From the NCBI GenBank assembly GCA_003116975.1, contig BGKB01000119.1, positions 62,001-126,000 of the forward strand: 64,000 nt of DNA, in the 5' to 3' direction. The position numbers and the translations under genes are program-made. The notes under the pieces were generated by a model. It was not told where the DNA came from and ran no database searches. It was given only the letters and a program-made list of their open reading frames with translations. The DNA is from Aurantiochytrium sp. KH105 (taxonomy: Eukaryota > Sar > Bigyra > Thraustochytrida > Thraustochytriidae). Positions 5,677 through 16,126 of this stretch are shown here, in pieces; position 1 is the first letter of the stretch, and every line of letters begins with the position of its first letter.

Positions 5677-6706
5677 GAAGAAGAAGAAGAAGAAGATCCC
5701 GAGAAGCTCAACTACTCAACAAAGCGCACGACGACTTACTTATTTGCTTTGTCAACGACACCTGCACAACACAGTCTTTAATGATCATCATCTGAAAGGA
5801 AAGAAATGCCATTTTAAACACACTTGTATGAACGACTCCATGCCTCGCGAAAGCACGGTTACTGGCACGCACAATGCTATTCTTGATTTTCAACTGGCCA
5901 CGAATTTGTCATCTCTCTTGTATTTGCTCGCTTAGTTCACATCTGACACGGACAATCTGCAACATTTTGATCTTTTGCTTCTAGAATCTCTCGCGAGAAC
6001 GTCGTGACTGTCCTCGATTCGTCTTAAATGGCGGCTATCACGGGAACGTTCATCTTTTGCTCTTCATCAAGGCGTAAAAGCAGCTCAAAATTCGCTCCTC
6101 AATACGACGTTCACACAGGATCGACGCCAAACGTCACTTCATAACCGCTTGTTCGTGCTTGCATTGCTTGTGACTGTGAGTTTTTAGTTATAAGCCAGCA
6201 CTTTGCACAACGCAGTTTGCACAACTACCGCGGTTTGCACACCGGCACTGTGCACACAACCAGGATTCACCAAATTGACAACAACAACTTGACAACAACT
6301 TGAAAGCAACAAGCAACTAGAGAACTTGAGCGCCGCGCGTGCCAACGTGTGTGCGCTCGTGCTGGGCCTTCGCCCAAACACCGAGCACCCTCCCCTTCGC
6401 CCTCGCGCGCGCGCGACCGCGCGGCAGGCAGGCGCGCAAGGCGCAAGTCAGCCCTCACCCCCCTCCCTTCCCTCCTCTTTCTCCGCGCGGACGCCGCCGC
6501 GGAGAACGCGCCAAGGCCGCATCGGATTAGCAGCAAGCAGCCAGGCTCTCCGATTGCGCTCCCCTCGCCGCCGCCCCGAGTCTCTCTCTCTCCCTGCTTT
6601 CTCGTCCCTCCTCTCGCCGCAGCCGCTCGCTCGCTCGCGCCGCTTCTTCGCGCCGCTTGCCCGCCCTCCTGCCCGCCCGCCCGCCCTCGCTCCCCTCGCC
6701 GCCGCC
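5677..6706. other. intergenic: AAG microsatellite and leader of the ROCO gene
   Basis: It starts with a (aag)n run at 5677-5695. From 6190 to 6310 there are loosely repeated ttgcacaac and caacttgac units. The last 400 bp are GC-rich and end in gccgccATGg at the next gene. The plus-strand frame upstream of 6707 is open but low complexity and is treated as leader. Confidence 0.5.
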
Positions 6707-9700
6707 ATGGGCCCCATCCAAGGCTACGTGAACGGCGTCGCGCAGTCCGCCGACCTCGTGCTGGCTGCCAGCGGCAGGGACTGCTCGTTGCGTGCATGGA
6801 GCAAGAAGGACGGCGCCCTCGTCTTGGAGATGAAGACGCCCAACAACAAAAAGGCCCTCAGAGTGGCCGTGCAGGGCAACCTCGCCGCCGTGGGGACTCA
6901 AGAAGGCGGCCTCTTCCTGATCGACCTGGCCACGGCGTCCGTCCTGCACGCCCTCCTGGGCCACACCGGCACTGTCTACAGCGTCATCTTCGACGGCAAC
7001 GAGATCATCTCCGGGTCCGGCGACCAGACCGTCCGCGTCTGGGACAAGATCAGCGGCCGAGAGACCTTGAGGATCGACGCCGGAACGATCGTCTTGAGCG
7101 TTGCCGCCCACGAGAACCTGCTCGTGGCCGGGTTGTACGACAAGACCGTGCGCGTCTTCGACCGGGCCAGCGGCGGCCCACGCCACGTCCTCACGGAGGC
7201 GACAGGCTCGGTCAGAGCGGTCGCGATCGATGCGCAGCGCATGGTGAGCGGGTCCAACGACAACAAGGTGAGGGTCTACGCCGTGCCTTCCTTCCAGCTC
7301 GTCCGCGTCCTCGAAGGACACTTCGGCTATGTGCGCTCTGTCGCGCTCGAGGGAGACCGCATCGTGAGCGGGTCCGAGGACTACACGGTCAGACTCTGGG
7401 ACGCGCGCAGCGGAGACGCGCTGCACGTCTTGGAAGGACACTCGCGCGATGTGACCTCGGTCTCTCTCTTGGGGTCGGAGATCGTGAGCGGATCTTACAG
7501 CGTGCGCATCTGGGACGCGGAGACGGGCGCCTCGACGCGCGTGCTGGACGGCACGGAGGCCGTGCGGCCCATCGAGGAGGTGCTCGGCGGCCCCGCGACT
7601 ACTGCGGCGGTGGCGGAGGCGCTCAAGGCGGCGCTGGCGAACGGGGACCCCGCAGAGCTGGGCCGCTGCAAGCTCATGGTCGTCGGCCAGGGCGCCGCCG
7701 GCAAGACGTCTGTGGTGCGCTCGCTGCTGGACATACCGCCCGTGGCGGAGCACCTCTCGACGGTGGGCGTCGAGCTCACGCGCACCGATGCAGAGTCCTG
7801 GAAAGAGATCGAGAACCTTGACAGCGGATTTGAACGCCAGGTGTGTCGCGTAGCGGCGCTGCGCATGGCTGTGCAAGCGGAGCAACTCAGAAGCAAGAAG
7901 ACGCAATCACTGCCCAGGCGCGTCTCCCAAGACCTTTCGAATGCCGTCTTTGGACGCCGACGTTCTTCTGCGGCGGCGCGACCTTTCGTTGCAGAGGAGC
8001 AGGTGGAGCTGGTGCCCGAGGCCGAGATGGCGCAGCGGTTCGAATACGCGGAGATTGAGGACATGGCCGGCACGACGCAATCTGGCCAGAAGATCTTCTT
8101 TACGATCTGGGACTATGCGGGTCAAGAGGTCTTTTACGCGCTACACCACATTTTCCTTACGCGTGAGGGCGGCGTCTTCATGGTCGTCTTCGACATGCAA
8201 GAGCTTTTCGTCAAGCAAGACCAAGCCGTGGAGAATCTTTCCTTTTGGCTCAACTCGATCAAGCTGCATGCGCCGACTGCACCGATCCTTCTCGTGGGCA
8301 CGCACTATGACCAAGCGTCAGATGACGTTTACGACGTGGAGGATATCCTCGTCGAAAATCTGTTTGTTGACACAAATGAGAGCATTGTCTCAAACTCTGC
8401 GGAAGGCCTGAGCTTTTTCCCGATCGACAACATGAGCCGGGAGCCAGGCCATGCCTCAGAATTGAGAGCCGCGGTCGAAGCAAGCGCGTCGGGGCTTGAG
8501 GCTGTATCGCGAAAGATCTCGCTGCGCTGGCTCAAGGTGTTGGACGACCTGCTGAAGCTGGACTGCGACTATGTGCCTTTTGATACAGCACAAGAGATCG
8601 CGACCAAGTACCACGCCGGTGATCAGACCGACGAGCTCTTGAGCTTCTTCCACGAGCTCGGCACGCTCGTCCATCTCCGCGCAACGGACACCTTGCACGA
8701 CAGAGTCGTCCTGAACCCGCAATGGCTTCTGGACAAGCTTTCGCGCGTCATCGCAGATGAAATCCATGTCAAGCAGATGCGAAACAGTCGCGAATTGCAG
8801 AATGCTGGTCTCAAGAAAGACTTTTCTGTGCTGCGCAAACGTGGCATCGCCACGCTCAGTCTGCTGAAGTTTCTGTGGGATGACGAAGAAGTCGACTATC
8901 TGCGGGGTTTTATGCATGAGACAATGCTGATATCAGACTGGGCGTTCCCAGAAGAGGCACTGACGATGGGCCGCCAAGACGAACTGCTTTATTTGGTGAG
9001 CAGTTTGCTCAAGAACTCGAGGGACCGCAAACTCGAACAAGACATTGCGAAAATTCAGAGCGGGCTGACCTGCGTGTTGGACTTTTCCGACTTCTTTCTC
9101 CCGGACGGTGTCTTTGCACGTCTTCTTTCGCTTTGTGCCAAGCACAGTGGCGATTCGGGCGTGCGCCGGCGTCCTCCGCGCCTTGCGGGACGGGACGCCA
9201 TCATTCGTTTTGGTTTGTCGGAGTTTGCGCTGGTTGAAGAACGAGATCAGATTCGGCTCATCATGGTTCCCGGGACAGAAACCCCGGCAAGTACGCTCAA
9301 GACACTCATTAGCATGTTTCTCGGAGCGCGTGACGCCGTTTTCAAGGGTTTGCCCTGGCAACTGCATTTGCAATCACCCAACGACCCTTTCGCACTCGTC
9401 GAGTACAATGAATTGGTCGACGCTCGCAAGGGAGCGGCTACCACAGTCGCGTTGGTTGGCGTAGGGAATGCTTCTGTCGCCGTCTTTGACCCCTTCTTCG
9501 AGGAGGGTTCATTGACCGAAGACGAAAAGGACACTGGGACTGTGGAAAAGGCAAACATCCCGCTGGCTGCGGGGCTCGAGTATCACGTCTTTCTGAGTCA
9601 TCGTCAGGTTGACGCAGGCGATGCTTGCAATCTCATGGCAGAAAAGCTTCGCAACCGTGGACTTCGTGTCTGGATTGACCAGGAGACCGAGGGCAACCTC

Positions 9701-10009
9701 GCAAAGGACGCAATGAAGCGAGGCATTCGTAAGTCCAAGTGTTACTTGCTCTTCCTTTCCAAGACGGTGTTCTCCGAAGCCGTGAAAATGGAGCTGCAAA
9801 CGGCTTTGCAAGAGGAGAAACCTATTTTAGTTGTGCACGAGAGCGACCCAAGCCGCATTGGTTTTGCCCCTTTCTCCGCATACATTGCCGCAGCTCCAGC
9901 CTCGGCTAAACATCTTTTCGACGAGAAGGAGTCCATGCCTTTCCAGCGTCGCCGTTACCTGGCAGAGGCCTTCTACAAGGAGCTCATCGAGCGCATCAGG
10001 GATCTCTAG
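6707..10009 (+). CDS. WD40-Roc-COR-TIR protein (ROCO family)
   Basis: The protein has 1100 residues and an ideal gccgccATGg start. Residues 1-290 are WD40 repeats (GSGDQTVRVWD, GSEDYTVRLWD). A Roc GTPase at about 318-545 has P-loop GQGAAGKTS (327-335), switch II DYAGQ (469-473) and VGTHYD (530-535); THxD in place of NKxD is the ROCO hallmark. A COR-type dimerisation region follows to about 950. The C-terminus (957-1095) is TIR-like: YHVFLSHRQ, then LRVWIDQE, then LLFLSKTVFSEAVKMEL, with E1029 where TIR NADases such as SARM1 carry their catalytic Glu. Family knowledge makes Roc-COR a dimeric GTPase switch and TIR a signalling or NAD-cleaving domain. I infer a WD40 sensor that drives TIR output, much as in NLR or STAND systems. 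NADase activity is unproven. Confidence 0.88.
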   Translation: MGPIQGYVNGVAQSADLVLAASGRDCSLRAWSKKDGALVLEMKTPNNKKALRVAVQGNLAAVGTQEGGLFLIDLATASVLHALLGHTGTVYSVIFDGNEIISGSGDQTVRVWDKISGRETLRIDAGTIVLSVAAHENLLVAGLYDKTVRVFDRASGGPRHVLTEATGSVRAVAIDAQRMVSGSNDNKVRVYAVPSFQLVRVLEGHFGYVRSVALEGDRIVSGSEDYTVRLWDARSGDALHVLEGHSRDVTSVSLLGSEIVSGSYSVRIWDAETGASTRVLDGTEAVRPIEEVLGGPATTAAVAEALKAALANGDPAELGRCKLMVVGQGAAGKTSVVRSLLDIPPVAEHLSTVGVELTRTDAESWKEIENLDSGFERQVCRVAALRMAVQAEQLRSKKTQSLPRRVSQDLSNAVFGRRRSSAAARPFVAEEQVELVPEAEMAQRFEYAEIEDMAGTTQSGQKIFFTIWDYAGQEVFYALHHIFLTREGGVFMVVFDMQELFVKQDQAVENLSFWLNSIKLHAPTAPILLVGTHYDQASDDVYDVEDILVENLFVDTNESIVSNSAEGLSFFPIDNMSREPGHASELRAAVEASASGLEAVSRKISLRWLKVLDDLLKLDCDYVPFDTAQEIATKYHAGDQTDELLSFFHELGTLVHLRATDTLHDRVVLNPQWLLDKLSRVIADEIHVKQMRNSRELQNAGLKKDFSVLRKRGIATLSLLKFLWDDEEVDYLRGFMHETMLISDWAFPEEALTMGRQDELLYLVSSLLKNSRDRKLEQDIAKIQSGLTCVLDFSDFFLPDGVFARLLSLCAKHSGDSGVRRRPPRLAGRDAIIRFGLSEFALVEERDQIRLIMVPGTETPASTLKTLISMFLGARDAVFKGLPWQLHLQSPNDPFALVEYNELVDARKGAATTVALVGVGNASVAVFDPFFEEGSLTEDEKDTGTVEKANIPLAAGLEYHVFLSHRQVDAGDACNLMAEKLRNRGLRVWIDQETEGNLAKDAMKRGIRKSKCYLLFLSKTVFSEAVKMELQTALQEEKPILVVHESDPSRIGFAPFSAYIAAAPASAKHLFDEKESMPFQRRRYLAEAFYKELIERIRDL

Positions 10010-11599: not shown

Positions 11600-14500
11600 A
11601 TGGCAGCCGCGTCGAGCGGGCGCACGGCGAGCGTCGGACCTGGCGCGGGTGATACCAATGAGACCTTGGGAGCCCAAACGCTCACGAACAACAACTCCGC
11701 CGCCGCCGCTGCCGCCGTTGGCGCGGAGGGCGCGGAGGGCGTCGAAGACGGTCTCCTGCTGTCGCAAGACTTTATCCGCCATGGACTCTCCAAGACAGCA
11801 GACCCGCTTCAGTTTGTAGATGAACTTCAGACGAGACATGGCTCGGGCTTGCAAGGATGCGAGCCTGTTCTCTGGCTGCTCGAGTCTCTTGGCATGCGGA
11901 GGAACGAGCTTCTACGCGGCCTTTTCCAAAACCTCAAGGCCAAACTTTTGACGCATGTGCGCACCTCTTCCAAGACGCAGCTCGCGGCCCTCCTGTCCGA
12001 GACTCTCCCACTACTTTCGCACCCTACGCTCGAAGAGGTGCCTCTACGAATTCTTAGCGCTATTTCCGAGCCTTCTCCCGATATCCTCGAGCAGCTCAGC
12101 CAGCTCGACACGACTGCTCTCGAAAAACTTCCCAAGGATGCGCGCCAGAGCCTATGGGAGGAGTATCCGGACACCTTTCTTGCACATGTTGATCCCATTA
12201 TCGAGCGCTTTGTCCACGACTCGGCTGCCACCACGTGGTGCGATGAAATGTTTCCCGATATCAACTTTCCTCCGCCCCACAAGCGACGGCAAAAGAGCAC
12301 TCCGCTGCAAGAACTCATTGGCGCCATTGGGACATCGGCGAAGCTTTACCGCTTCCTCGCGGACCGAATCCGCGAGCTTTTTGCTGATTCTGGAAACCTG
12401 CGACTCTGCGCGCTGCGCGCAGACCTGCTCATGGGCCTACACGACATATCGGCGCAAAGCGTGTTGGCCACAGAGCCCTGTCACGAGTTTGCCTGGCACC
12501 TTGACGCTTACGTCAAGGGCATTTGCTCCAAAGCTGCTCACGCTGCGCTCGACATGAACACGGCGCGTCTTCAAAAGACCGTGGTGGCCGAGATCATGAA
12601 ACTCATCTCGGGTCACCTCAAGCCGGGTCTTGCCTCAGCGTTTGCATCTACGGCCGACATTGACTCCTCTGCCAGCGCTCTATTCGCCAATGGCAAGGGT
12701 GGCCTCGGCCCCCGACCCGTTAAGCCATCGTCTGGGACGGCGCACGCACGTGCCTCGCCTGCGGGGGCCGCTGATCCTACCGGCGGATCCAACGCTCCCG
12801 CTCCTCAGGCTGCGCCCGCACCCGCGTCTGCGTCTCCTGAAAAGACCATCGACCTCAACACTGTCCTCTTGGAAGCATGGAAGAAGATTCGCAATGTTGA
12901 TCGTCACCGTCTCTTCCATTACCCCGTCGTCGAAACATACCCGGCTCTTAAACTCGCCTACGAAGCCAAGATTACTCGCCCCATGGACCTCCAGACGATC
13001 GAAGACAAGATCCGGCGCAAGGAGTACCAAAGCGTCGACGATATGCGCGCTGACCTCAACCTGATCGCCGACAATGCTCTCACCTTTAACGGTCCCAAGC
13101 ACAAGGTCGCCATTGCCGCACGAAGTATCATGAAGACCAAGGCCAAACCCTTCTTGAATGCGGCCGCGCAAAAGTATCAGAATGCCCTCATGCGGCAACG
13201 CGCGCTTGAGCAGGCACGCCTTGCGGAAAAGGGAAAAGCCGAAGCAGAGAATGCAAAGGGCCAAGCTTCCCAAGAGGGGCAAAAGGAGGAGGATTCATCG
13301 CCTCTCGCAAACGGAGAAGCCAATGGCGTTTCCGCGCGCGAGCCAGAAGAGGATGCGGAGCGCAAGCGCGAGCGCCGTGAAATGGAACGCAAGGCAAGAG
13401 AGCGAGCGGAGACCCAAGGTCTTCTGGCCAAGGTGGAAACTTCAGGCCGTCTTCGGCGCACGATTAGCGATGCCGCCATGATCCTCGCCAGCGGCTTCAC
13501 GGTAAATGCGCTTACAAGTCTGCTCTGGTTTCTCATGGGCGAGGATGTGGTCAAGCGCGAGCAGCTTCCTCGGGACTCGGAAACGACCCGGAACATTGTC
13601 TGGCTCCTGCAAACAGGGTCCTTTGCCCGTGAACTCGTTCTCGAGGCGGATCGGCGCGAAGTCGTCGTCAAGGCGCTCGATGTTGATACGGAACGCAAGA
13701 CACTCCCAGCGCTGGCCATGCTCATGTCGGAAGCGGTCGAAATGAACATCAAAACTTCCCCCGCGGCCGCGGGGGGCGCTGCCGGGACTGGGGCAACACA
13801 AGCACCAGCAGCAAGCGGAGGCGCGAGCAGTGCGGGTGTGGAGAATAGCGCTTCTTCCGCTAGCAAGAGCCCTGTGGACCCATGTCTGCGTGTCTCGATC
13901 AAGTCAGATTGGATTACGCGGAATGCATTGCTTTACTTTTACTGCCAACGAATCTGCCATCGAGACGTGGCCCTCTTGCCATCCATTGCTGATCTCATCC
14001 AAAACCAAGGAGCTATCGTCACAGAGCATCCTGCATTTTTGCATTCCCTGGTCACGGCGTTTTTTATTCAGTCGCAGCGTCAAAATACGGCAACAGGGCC
14101 CAGCTGGCAAAAGGGGGGCCCACACAGTCGGCCTGGGTTTCCTGCGCGGGCAGTCACGCATCATGTGTCGGGATCGGGCCTTCAGGCACCCCTGCCCGCC
14201 TCTTTCCTCAATCAGGCCATTGAGACGCTCTTTTTACCCGAGGTGCTACGCGTCGCGCCAACGACTACAGATTCGAGCAAGACTGCATGGGCCCACGTGC
14301 ACTTGACGCGGCTCCTCACGCTCGAGTACACGTTGCACACGCTCTCGCAGGCTGAAGTGCTTCGTTTTGCGCGTGCTGCGCTCATTAGCTTGTCTGGCAA
14401 GGCCCACGACGTTGAGCCAAACACAATCATGGCTTCTCCCGAGCTCAAGGACGTCATTTATGAACGTTACTGCGCGCCGGACTTTGAGCGCGCTCGACGC

Positions 14501-14782
14501 CAATACGAAAAACTTTTCCGACGCATGCCAACCTTGCGCACGCAGTGTGGTTTGCCCCCAATTGTTGGCGCGCACGAGGGCGGAACCGGGCCTTCGCCCT
14601 CGCCGTCGCCATCTCCGCTCGTGTCTCCGTCGCCATCTCCGTATGCGCCGTCGCCCTTTGCAGCTGGGTCTCCCGAAGATTCTGCTGCGGGATCATCACC
14701 GCCTCCGCGCAAGAGGTTGTTGGACCAGGCCGTCGAGGGTGGCCTTGAAAGTGTCAAGCGATCCAAGACGAGCCCAATGTGA
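11600..14782 (+). CDS. NELFB: NELF-B/COBRA1 homologue with an inserted bromodomain
   Basis: The protein has 1060 residues. It matches NELF-B on both sides of an insertion. The N-terminal part has LCALRADLLMGLHD (about 268-281) and TEPCHEFAWHLDA, close to the animal LRAELLMSLHD and DPCHKFTWCLDA. The C-terminal part has DAAMILASGFTVNALTSL (about 622-640) and EQLPRDSE, close to the animal MILCDPFAINTL and ETLPRDSP. Between them, at about 418-530, sits a bromodomain: FHYPVVETYPALKLAYEAKI, then PMDLQTIEDKI, then NALTFN, with N497 at the acetyl-lysine-binding Asn. A Gln/Lys-rich coiled stretch follows, and a Pro/Ser tail with basic PPRKR ends the protein. NELF-B scaffolds the negative elongation factor that pauses RNA polymerase II. 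I infer a NELF that can read acetylated chromatin. The frame is uninterrupted, which argues against a mis-join. Confidence 0.88.
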   Translation: MAAASSGRTASVGPGAGDTNETLGAQTLTNNNSAAAAAAVGAEGAEGVEDGLLLSQDFIRHGLSKTADPLQFVDELQTRHGSGLQGCEPVLWLLESLGMRRNELLRGLFQNLKAKLLTHVRTSSKTQLAALLSETLPLLSHPTLEEVPLRILSAISEPSPDILEQLSQLDTTALEKLPKDARQSLWEEYPDTFLAHVDPIIERFVHDSAATTWCDEMFPDINFPPPHKRRQKSTPLQELIGAIGTSAKLYRFLADRIRELFADSGNLRLCALRADLLMGLHDISAQSVLATEPCHEFAWHLDAYVKGICSKAAHAALDMNTARLQKTVVAEIMKLISGHLKPGLASAFASTADIDSSASALFANGKGGLGPRPVKPSSGTAHARASPAGAADPTGGSNAPAPQAAPAPASASPEKTIDLNTVLLEAWKKIRNVDRHRLFHYPVVETYPALKLAYEAKITRPMDLQTIEDKIRRKEYQSVDDMRADLNLIADNALTFNGPKHKVAIAARSIMKTKAKPFLNAAAQKYQNALMRQRALEQARLAEKGKAEAENAKGQASQEGQKEEDSSPLANGEANGVSAREPEEDAERKRERREMERKARERAETQGLLAKVETSGRLRRTISDAAMILASGFTVNALTSLLWFLMGEDVVKREQLPRDSETTRNIVWLLQTGSFARELVLEADRREVVVKALDVDTERKTLPALAMLMSEAVEMNIKTSPAAAGGAAGTGATQAPAASGGASSAGVENSASSASKSPVDPCLRVSIKSDWITRNALLYFYCQRICHRDVALLPSIADLIQNQGAIVTEHPAFLHSLVTAFFIQSQRQNTATGPSWQKGGPHSRPGFPARAVTHHVSGSGLQAPLPASFLNQAIETLFLPEVLRVAPTTTDSSKTAWAHVHLTRLLTLEYTLHTLSQAEVLRFARAALISLSGKAHDVEPNTIMASPELKDVIYERYCAPDFERARRQYEKLFRRMPTLRTQCGLPPIVGAHEGGTGPSPSPSPSPLVSPSPSPYAPSPFAAGSPEDSAAGSSPPPRKRLLDQAVEGGLESVKRSKTSPM

Positions 14783-15130: not shown

Positions 15131-16126
15131 TTACTGATCGGTGCGCTGCATCCACTTGATTTGCTCAGCAGAAATGGGGTCGTGTGCGGCATCGTAGGGC
15201 TCAAAGTGAACCGAGTCGCCCTCGCCATAAGAAAGCTTGAGTTGTCCATCGACGAGCTCGAGGTTCTGGATCGAAGTAATAACCTCGGCCACGCGCTCCT
15301 CGAGAGCAAGAACCTTGGGGGGTGGCATCATCTTGGTAGAGATGGCCGGGGAGCCTGTAGACTTGTGCGGCGCTTCGAGGGAAACCTCCGAGGAAATGGA
15401 GTTGGCGACCTTGGCCTGAACGCCGAGGTTGGCCTCGTTGGCAACAACCTTGATCACAACGGGCGGAAGCTCGTCCGTGTCTTCGCCGACGATGCTAGCC
15501 GCAGGCGCGACCCAGGCGCCGTGCACAGACTCACGGGTCTGGGAAGCAGAAGGGCGCGACAGGTCCTCGGCAGAAGGCGCAGACTTGCGCTCGATAACGA
15601 CCTTGGCCGGGCCCGTGCTAAAGCCCACCGTCGGGTACAAAGGGCCAACGTTGATGACCTCGAACTCGTCGATCGAAAAGGCCTTGCCGAGGCCCTCGCC
15701 ATTGACGGAGATGTAAACCTCGAGATCGTGGCGTTTGTTCTTGCGCTCGACCATCTCGGCACGGAGGCCGACAACGTCGCCCTGCTTGAGCGACGGTCCA
15801 AAGCCCTGTGCCAGAAGACTGCTGCCGTCGCTGAGGTTACCGCCGTAAGAGAGTCCCTTGAAGCTCCATCCGGCACCAAAGTTCTTTTCGTCGGTAAGGC
15901 CGATGGAAACGGGCATGGACGCGCCCTCGGGTGCCTCCGCAATGGTAAATTCAAAGTACTGCGCATCCGGCAGGCTGGGGGACAGGCCGCGGCCCTCCTT
16001 CCACATGGCGTTCATCCGCGTCGACTGCTTGGGCTTGGTCTCCACCCACGCCTCGTTGGCGCGTGCCTTGACGAGGCCCGTCTCCTCGCCCAGCCAGTAC
16101 GACATGGTCGTCGTGAACGCCGACAT
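15131..16126 (-). CDS. SPRY (B30.2-like) domain protein
   Basis: The 331-residue protein starts MSAFTTTMSYWLGEE. Residues about 50-190 form a SPRY domain: VSIGLTDEKNFGAGWSFKG, YGGNLSDGS, LKQGDVVGLRAEM, LEVYISVNGEGLG and YPTVGFSTG, the usual order of SPRY strands. SPRY domains are protein-interaction platforms in ubiquitin ligases and other adaptors. The C-terminal third is low complexity, then has a short segment (EERVAEVITSIQNLELVDGQ) ending in EQIKWMQRTDQ that I do not recognise. There is no RING or SOCS box, so no ubiquitin role can be claimed. The gene is convergent with NELF-B. Confidence 0.75.
   Translation of the reverse strand: MSAFTTTMSYWLGEETGLVKARANEAWVETKPKQSTRMNAMWKEGRGLSPSLPDAQYFEFTIAEAPEGASMPVSIGLTDEKNFGAGWSFKGLSYGGNLSDGSSLLAQGFGPSLKQGDVVGLRAEMVERKNKRHDLEVYISVNGEGLGKAFSIDEFEVINVGPLYPTVGFSTGPAKVVIERKSAPSAEDLSRPSASQTRESVHGAWVAPAASIVGEDTDELPPVVIKVVANEANLGVQAKVANSISSEVSLEAPHKSTGSPAISTKMMPPPKVLALEERVAEVITSIQNLELVDGQLKLSYGEGDSVHFEPYDAAHDPISAEQIKWMQRTDQ

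Follow-up and report, generated by a model that had tools for sequence, protein, structure and literature searches.

Several lines of evidence support the identification of a gene for NELF-B with an embedded bromodomain in Aurantiochytrium sp. KH105. The gene lies on the + strand at positions 11600 to 14782 of the window, that is, the whole 64,000-nucleotide stretch of DNA that we analyzed (contig BGKB01000119.1, here C119, positions 62,001 to 126,000). The identification is based on separate profile matches and on structural alignment. The protein is also conserved, both across the two genome copies and among relatives, and no other NELF-B locus was matched. The protein is the only NELF-B that we detected in this thraustochytrid. 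It appears to hold its bromodomain on flexible linkers, and this domain probably allows core NELF to bind the acetylated tails of histones in the first nucleosome, a reading to which we give a probability of roughly 0.6.

Neither COBRA1 nor Bromodomain is a new family, and databases already contain the combined protein with both Pfam domains. A search of the open-licence literature in PMC found no paper about a NELF-B bromodomain, judged by title and the start of the abstract. The word 'bromodomain' occurs 0 times in the main text of PMC11482795, and 'nelf' occurs 0 times in PMC13289920.

The NELF-B halves and the bromodomain

The features of the gene are listed by window position, strand and residues, with predicted local distance difference test scores (pLDDT) for the linkers and tail.

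11600-14782, +: complete gene for the bromodomain-bearing NELF-B; one frame of 1060 residues, with an open counterpart of 1066 residues on contig C7
11756-12634, +: N-terminal half of NELF-B, residues 53-345; COBRA1 matches best at 149-306; corresponds to human NELF-B 10-271
12635-12844, +: linker 1, poorly conserved, residues 346-415; pLDDT <50 at 364-414, probably disordered there
12848-13189, +: bromodomain, residues 417-530
12914-12916, +: F439, shelf Phe (the WPF motif is RLF here); invariant in 8/8 aligned rows and in P0016
12959-12961, +: Y454, expected pocket Tyr; invariant in 8/8 aligned rows and in P0016
13088-13090, +: N497, expected acetyl-lysine-anchoring Asn; invariant in 8/8 aligned rows and in P0016
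13190-13390, +: linker 2, charged and partly helical, residues 531-597; pLDDT <50 at 555-567 and 569-580
13391-14554, +: NELF-B C-terminal half, residues 598-985; identified by Pfam (5.1e-6 for 601-1060 alone) and structural alignment
14555-14779, +: Ser-Pro-rich tail, residues 986-1060; pLDDT <50 at 990-1060, probably disordered

The original prediction, made from the letters of the DNA, was of one uninterrupted frame with NELF-B signatures on both sides of a full bromodomain. The frame is indeed open for 1,060 codons, and its translation contains the expected landmarks: ALRADLLMGLHD (residues ~271-282), NALTFN including N497, ILASGFTVNAL (~628-638) and LPRDSE (~656-661). The prediction had also proposed that three pieces be searched separately against Pfam, with failure of either flank counting against it. 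Neither flank failed. Residues 1-410 alone matched COBRA1 (4.1e-21; profile 6-165), residues 418-530 matched Bromodomain (PF00439; 5.4e-20, 71.6 bits with a cut-off of 21.7), and residues 601-1060 matched COBRA1 (5.1e-6, 26.2 bits with a cut-off of 22; profile 176-284). The whole protein gave 6.5e-29 for COBRA1 and 3.4e-18 for Bromodomain.

We compared the protein to human NELF-B to locate the insertion, which had been placed between two helices that are adjacent in the animal protein. That placement was right to within one short helix. With a single sequence as query, the match to human NELF-B chains is interrupted at human residues 271-278, and the second stretch is weak alone (E 0.37). With a profile of five relatives without the bromodomain, the full match reaches 2e-47 and its second stretch alone 0.0015, and the interruption is at 275-293. 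The predicted model has the NELF-B fold over both halves when aligned to human NELF-B. In the five best rows, 473-490 residues are aligned, and the alignments extend to residues 977-982. A bromodomain fold is also predicted in the inserted segment, separated from the core by 72 residues before (346-417) and 108 after (512-619). Residues 306-345 form a conserved helical stretch preceding linker 1, with no clear counterpart seen in the human alignment. Human residues 276-292 may correspond to this stretch or to the helix at 583-629.

The tail is rich in Ser-Pro repeats (SPSPSPSP...YAPSPF) and is likewise SP-rich in the homologues P0002, P0003, P0005 and P0006. It might be phosphorylated by a kinase or bound by a WW domain.

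Genome copies, relatives and the source of the bromodomain

The genome (76 Mb in 367 contigs) was searched in six frames with profiles, ignoring introns. There were four COBRA1 matches, the two halves on each of two contigs, C119 and C7. These are apparently two genome copies of the region, and both carry the full frame. No further COBRA1 locus was found in this search. Thus, on sequence grounds, it looks like a single-copy gene rather than an extra paralogue.

The two copies differ in a way that points to constraint on the bromodomain. Within residues 416-530 there are seven synonymous and no non-synonymous differences (Fisher p 2e-5). The corresponding synonymous/non-synonymous counts are 9/1 for the N core, 26/9 for the C core, 2/3 for each linker, 2/3 for the N-terminal 48 residues and 3/1 for the tail. 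Such codon-level constraint inside the insert is what an expressed domain should show and an intron should not. A scan of 12601-13420 for splice donors, limited to four strong motifs, found none.

Relatives were sought in three protein searches, each scoring ~8,000 candidates. At least eight distinct homologues bearing COBRA1 were recovered (P0002-P0007, P0015 and P0016). The window protein (P0001, 1060 residues) is the reference for identity figures. The original prediction had proposed looking for the same order in other labyrinthulomycetes and stramenopiles. Among the relatives recovered here the order recurs: all eight homologues, including that of Hondaea fermentalgiana, pass the Bromodomain cut-off and have a COBRA1 stretch ahead of the bromodomain. 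A second COBRA1 stretch is over the cut-off in all but P0016 (7/8), and linker lengths differ between homologues (7/8 measured). The closest named protein among the matches is 'Negative elongation factor B' of H. fermentalgiana, a thraustochytrid of the Labyrinthulomycetes (P0002; 98% identity), which differs from the protein on contig C7 at 4 of 1,066 positions. This match supports the guess of a labyrinthulomycete in the original prediction. P0004 is labelled Durusdinium trenchii, a dinoflagellate, and P0005 'hypothetical protein'; five homologues carry no source name. Because those five are without a source and P0004 may be contamination, spread over named lineages is not established. In P0004 the bromodomain-type NELF-B is fused to a major-facilitator transporter, perhaps reflecting both contamination and a joined gene model. 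Seven other matches (P0008-P0014) are bromodomain proteins without COBRA1 and were excluded from the homologues. Animal NELF-B was not among the matches, so with ~8,000 candidates scored per search the absence of a bromodomain-less NELF-B in stramenopiles is not shown. No relative was found in a scan of viral_contigs.

Across these homologues the bromodomain is conserved like the core. Its identity to P0001 is 73% in P0003, 55% in P0005, 51% in P0006, 63% in P0007, 50% in P0004 and 33% in P0015, and that of the N core is 74, 53, 51, 56, 55 and 23%, respectively. In the same six proteins, linker 1 is 11-59% identical and linker 2 is 14-41% identical. That is, bromodomain identity tracks the N core and not the linkers (P0016 is outside this count). 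P0015 is very distant (24% identity; ~10 changes per column on its core branch), with domain order unchanged.

The source of the bromodomain was examined by sequence matches and a tree. Among solved structures, the top scores are practically equal, at 48.6 bits for the first bromodomain of TAF1, 48.8 for BRD9 and 48.9 for BRD4. The tree has 43 rows: 26 of 62 matches from the organism's own genome (one per apparent allele pair, with several partial or further matches omitted), nine NELF-B rows and eight reference rows. Eight NELF-B bromodomains, all but that of P0015, form one clade (100/100). This clade groups with TAF1 bromodomains, including the TAF1 of the same genome, at 88/86, a value that is not firm; the bootstrap has not settled. 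Grouping with one of the several bromodomains of C14, a frame in the organism's own genome, was not rejected (p 0.362). The P0015 bromodomain is placed elsewhere in the tree, and a constraint uniting it with the other NELF-B bromodomains was not rejected either (p 0.227). Based on the sequences, a TAF1-like source is best placed, not firmly, and kinship with a bromodomain of C14 is also possible. Recent copying from elsewhere in the genome is unsupported; the best own-genome match outside the locus is 40% identical over ~60 residues (E 6e-7).

Proposed reading of acetyl-lysine and alternative explanations

In bromodomains, a Tyr and an Asn hold acetyl-lysine, and a WPF shelf is usual but not universal. 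We take Y454 and N497 to be these pocket residues. F496 is invariant as well, in 8/8 aligned rows and in P0016, and the pocket Tyr, Phe and Asn are retained even in P0015. This retention of the pocket residues makes binding of acetyl-lysine by the domain most likely.

We propose that the bromodomain sits between the NELF-B halves on flexible linkers, an arrangement that, judged by sequence and predicted fold, leaves the protein able to adopt the NELF-B fold and to pair with NELF-C/D. With its pocket residues retained, the bromodomain would bind acetyl-lysine and allow core NELF to bind the acetylated tails of the first nucleosome. Acetylation could then be coupled to recruitment or hold of NELF at promoters, or be sensed for the timing of release, and as far as the sequence goes the effect could run in either direction. 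NELF-mediated pausing sits very near the +1 nucleosome, and NELF-E binds nucleosomal DNA (PMC12667398). In vitro, NELF causes polymerase to pause just ahead of a nucleosome (PMC11062913). The protein suggests, as the original prediction supposed, a direct tie between pausing and acetylated chromatin, which seems reasonable on present evidence.

Several points weigh against this proposal. The WPF shelf is reduced to RLF, with Phe alone retained. The predicted model was built from eight sequences and has a mean pLDDT of 67, with residues 53-110 at 50-63. An intron-rich second NELF-B could escape a six-frame genome search. Pausing by the thraustochytrid complex is an assumed role. Finally, the acetylated target of the bromodomain may be a protein other than a histone. 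In that case the bromodomain would be a working reader of a partner such as acetylated NELF, Spt5 or a polymerase subunit, with a role in complex assembly and not in chromatin. Bromodomains can bind non-histone proteins, and the insertion site adjoins human K278, which crosslinks to NELF-A and to K125 of NELF-C (PMC4940160; this assumes shared numbering). However, in the tree the NELF-B clade lies closest to the bromodomains of TAF1, an initiation factor that faces chromatin (with the 88/86 support that is not firm), and the long stretches between core and bromodomain (72 and 108 residues) would allow possible reach beyond the complex. We consider a non-histone partner unlikely.

It is also conceivable, though quite improbable in our estimate, that the bromodomain, although present and folded, is a structural element or passenger that no longer reads acetyl-lysine. 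The RLF shelf would fit such a loss, but the invariant Tyr, Phe and Asn, the drift of the linkers around a bromodomain conserved like the core, and seven silent changes with no amino-acid change between the genome copies would not. An artefact, either two misjoined genes or a bromodomain within an intron or another transcript, has hardly any chance of being correct. Joined gene models do occur among the homologues, as the fusion in P0004 illustrates. Nevertheless, the open frames in both copies, the donor scan, the codon-level constraint, and a leading COBRA1 stretch in 8/8 homologues with linkers of varying length appear, from sequence, to rule it out.

The preferred reading, in which NELF-B brings core NELF to acetylated tails, poses a clean, testable question, namely whether NELF can sense histone acetylation directly, and its consequence would be fairly surprising. 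Animals link acetylated chromatin to pause release via separate proteins, for example BRD4 and P-TEFb. In the thraustochytrid, the core pausing subunit itself carries the reader, in an apparent single-copy gene and in several diverged relatives. Thraustochytrids can be grown in the laboratory and some can be genetically altered, so test organisms exist. The core pair of NELF-B and NELF-C/D is inferred to go back to the eukaryotic ancestor, with strong evidence for NELF-E in metazoans only (PMC11482795). Our finding bears on how that core complex engaged the first nucleosome before there was a NELF-E. A broader and rather doubtful notion is that bromodomain NELF-B represents an ancient, alternative way of building the pausing complex that extends beyond labyrinthulomycetes, supplying the grip on the nucleosome in lineages that lack NELF-E, with histone acetylation directly setting pausing. 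The reach beyond labyrinthulomycetes is suggested because P0015, at 24% identity, has the same order.

Other NELF components and comparison with known systems

Also encoded in the genome are NELF-C/D (TH1, 8.8e-47) and Spt5. NELF-A_N is barely over its cut-off of 27, with 29.6 bits in the genome search and 27.2 in a 399-residue frame. A search for HEXIM gave no match, and its control search was likewise silent. The two frames of interest are:

L025:592-1791 (G000:C8), -: NELF-A-like frame of 399 residues; N-domain just above cut-off, no other family above its own cut-off
L021:2244-5192 (G000:C44): NELF-C/D frame of 982 residues with a WW-like segment at residues 98-126

Of the two copies of NELF-C/D, on C44 and C122, the WW-like segment is reported for that on C44. 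It is under the Pfam cut-off (0.0093). Against the PDB, where its top matches are WW-domain proteins, it gave 3.2e-8 summed over four NEDD4-like WW domains, each weak alone (best 0.64), and ~0.001-0.005 with single WW chains (WBP4, Pin1). By sequence, it may give core NELF a second module of the reader type. If the numbering in PMC4940160 is that of the human chains, its crosslinks would make the attachment point of the bromodomain and the WW-bearing N terminus of NELF-C/D neighbours.

Two other frames in the window were noted. One, at 6326-10009 (+), has 1,227 residues and combines WD40 repeats, a Roc GTPase, COR-A and TIR_2. The other, at 15131-16126 (-), has 331 residues and a META match slightly under the cut-off (23.5; cut-off 24).

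The thraustochytrid protein resembles human NELF-B (COBRA1, PF06209; structures 8w8e, 8jj6 and 9j0n) in that both halves match by profile and predicted fold. In contrast to the human protein, which runs on directly at ~271-293, it has a bromodomain on flexible linkers at this point, and it has a long Ser-Pro-rich tail. Its bromodomain differs from those of TAF1, BRD9/BRD7, BRPF1 and BRD1 in lying within a pausing factor. Eight NELF-B bromodomains, all but that of P0015, form their own clade (100/100), whose link to TAF1 is just 88/86. Like animal NELF-E, the bromodomain would give NELF a grip on the +1 nucleosome. However, NELF-E touches nucleosomal DNA (PMC12667398), whereas the thraustochytrid bromodomain would read acetyl-lysine.
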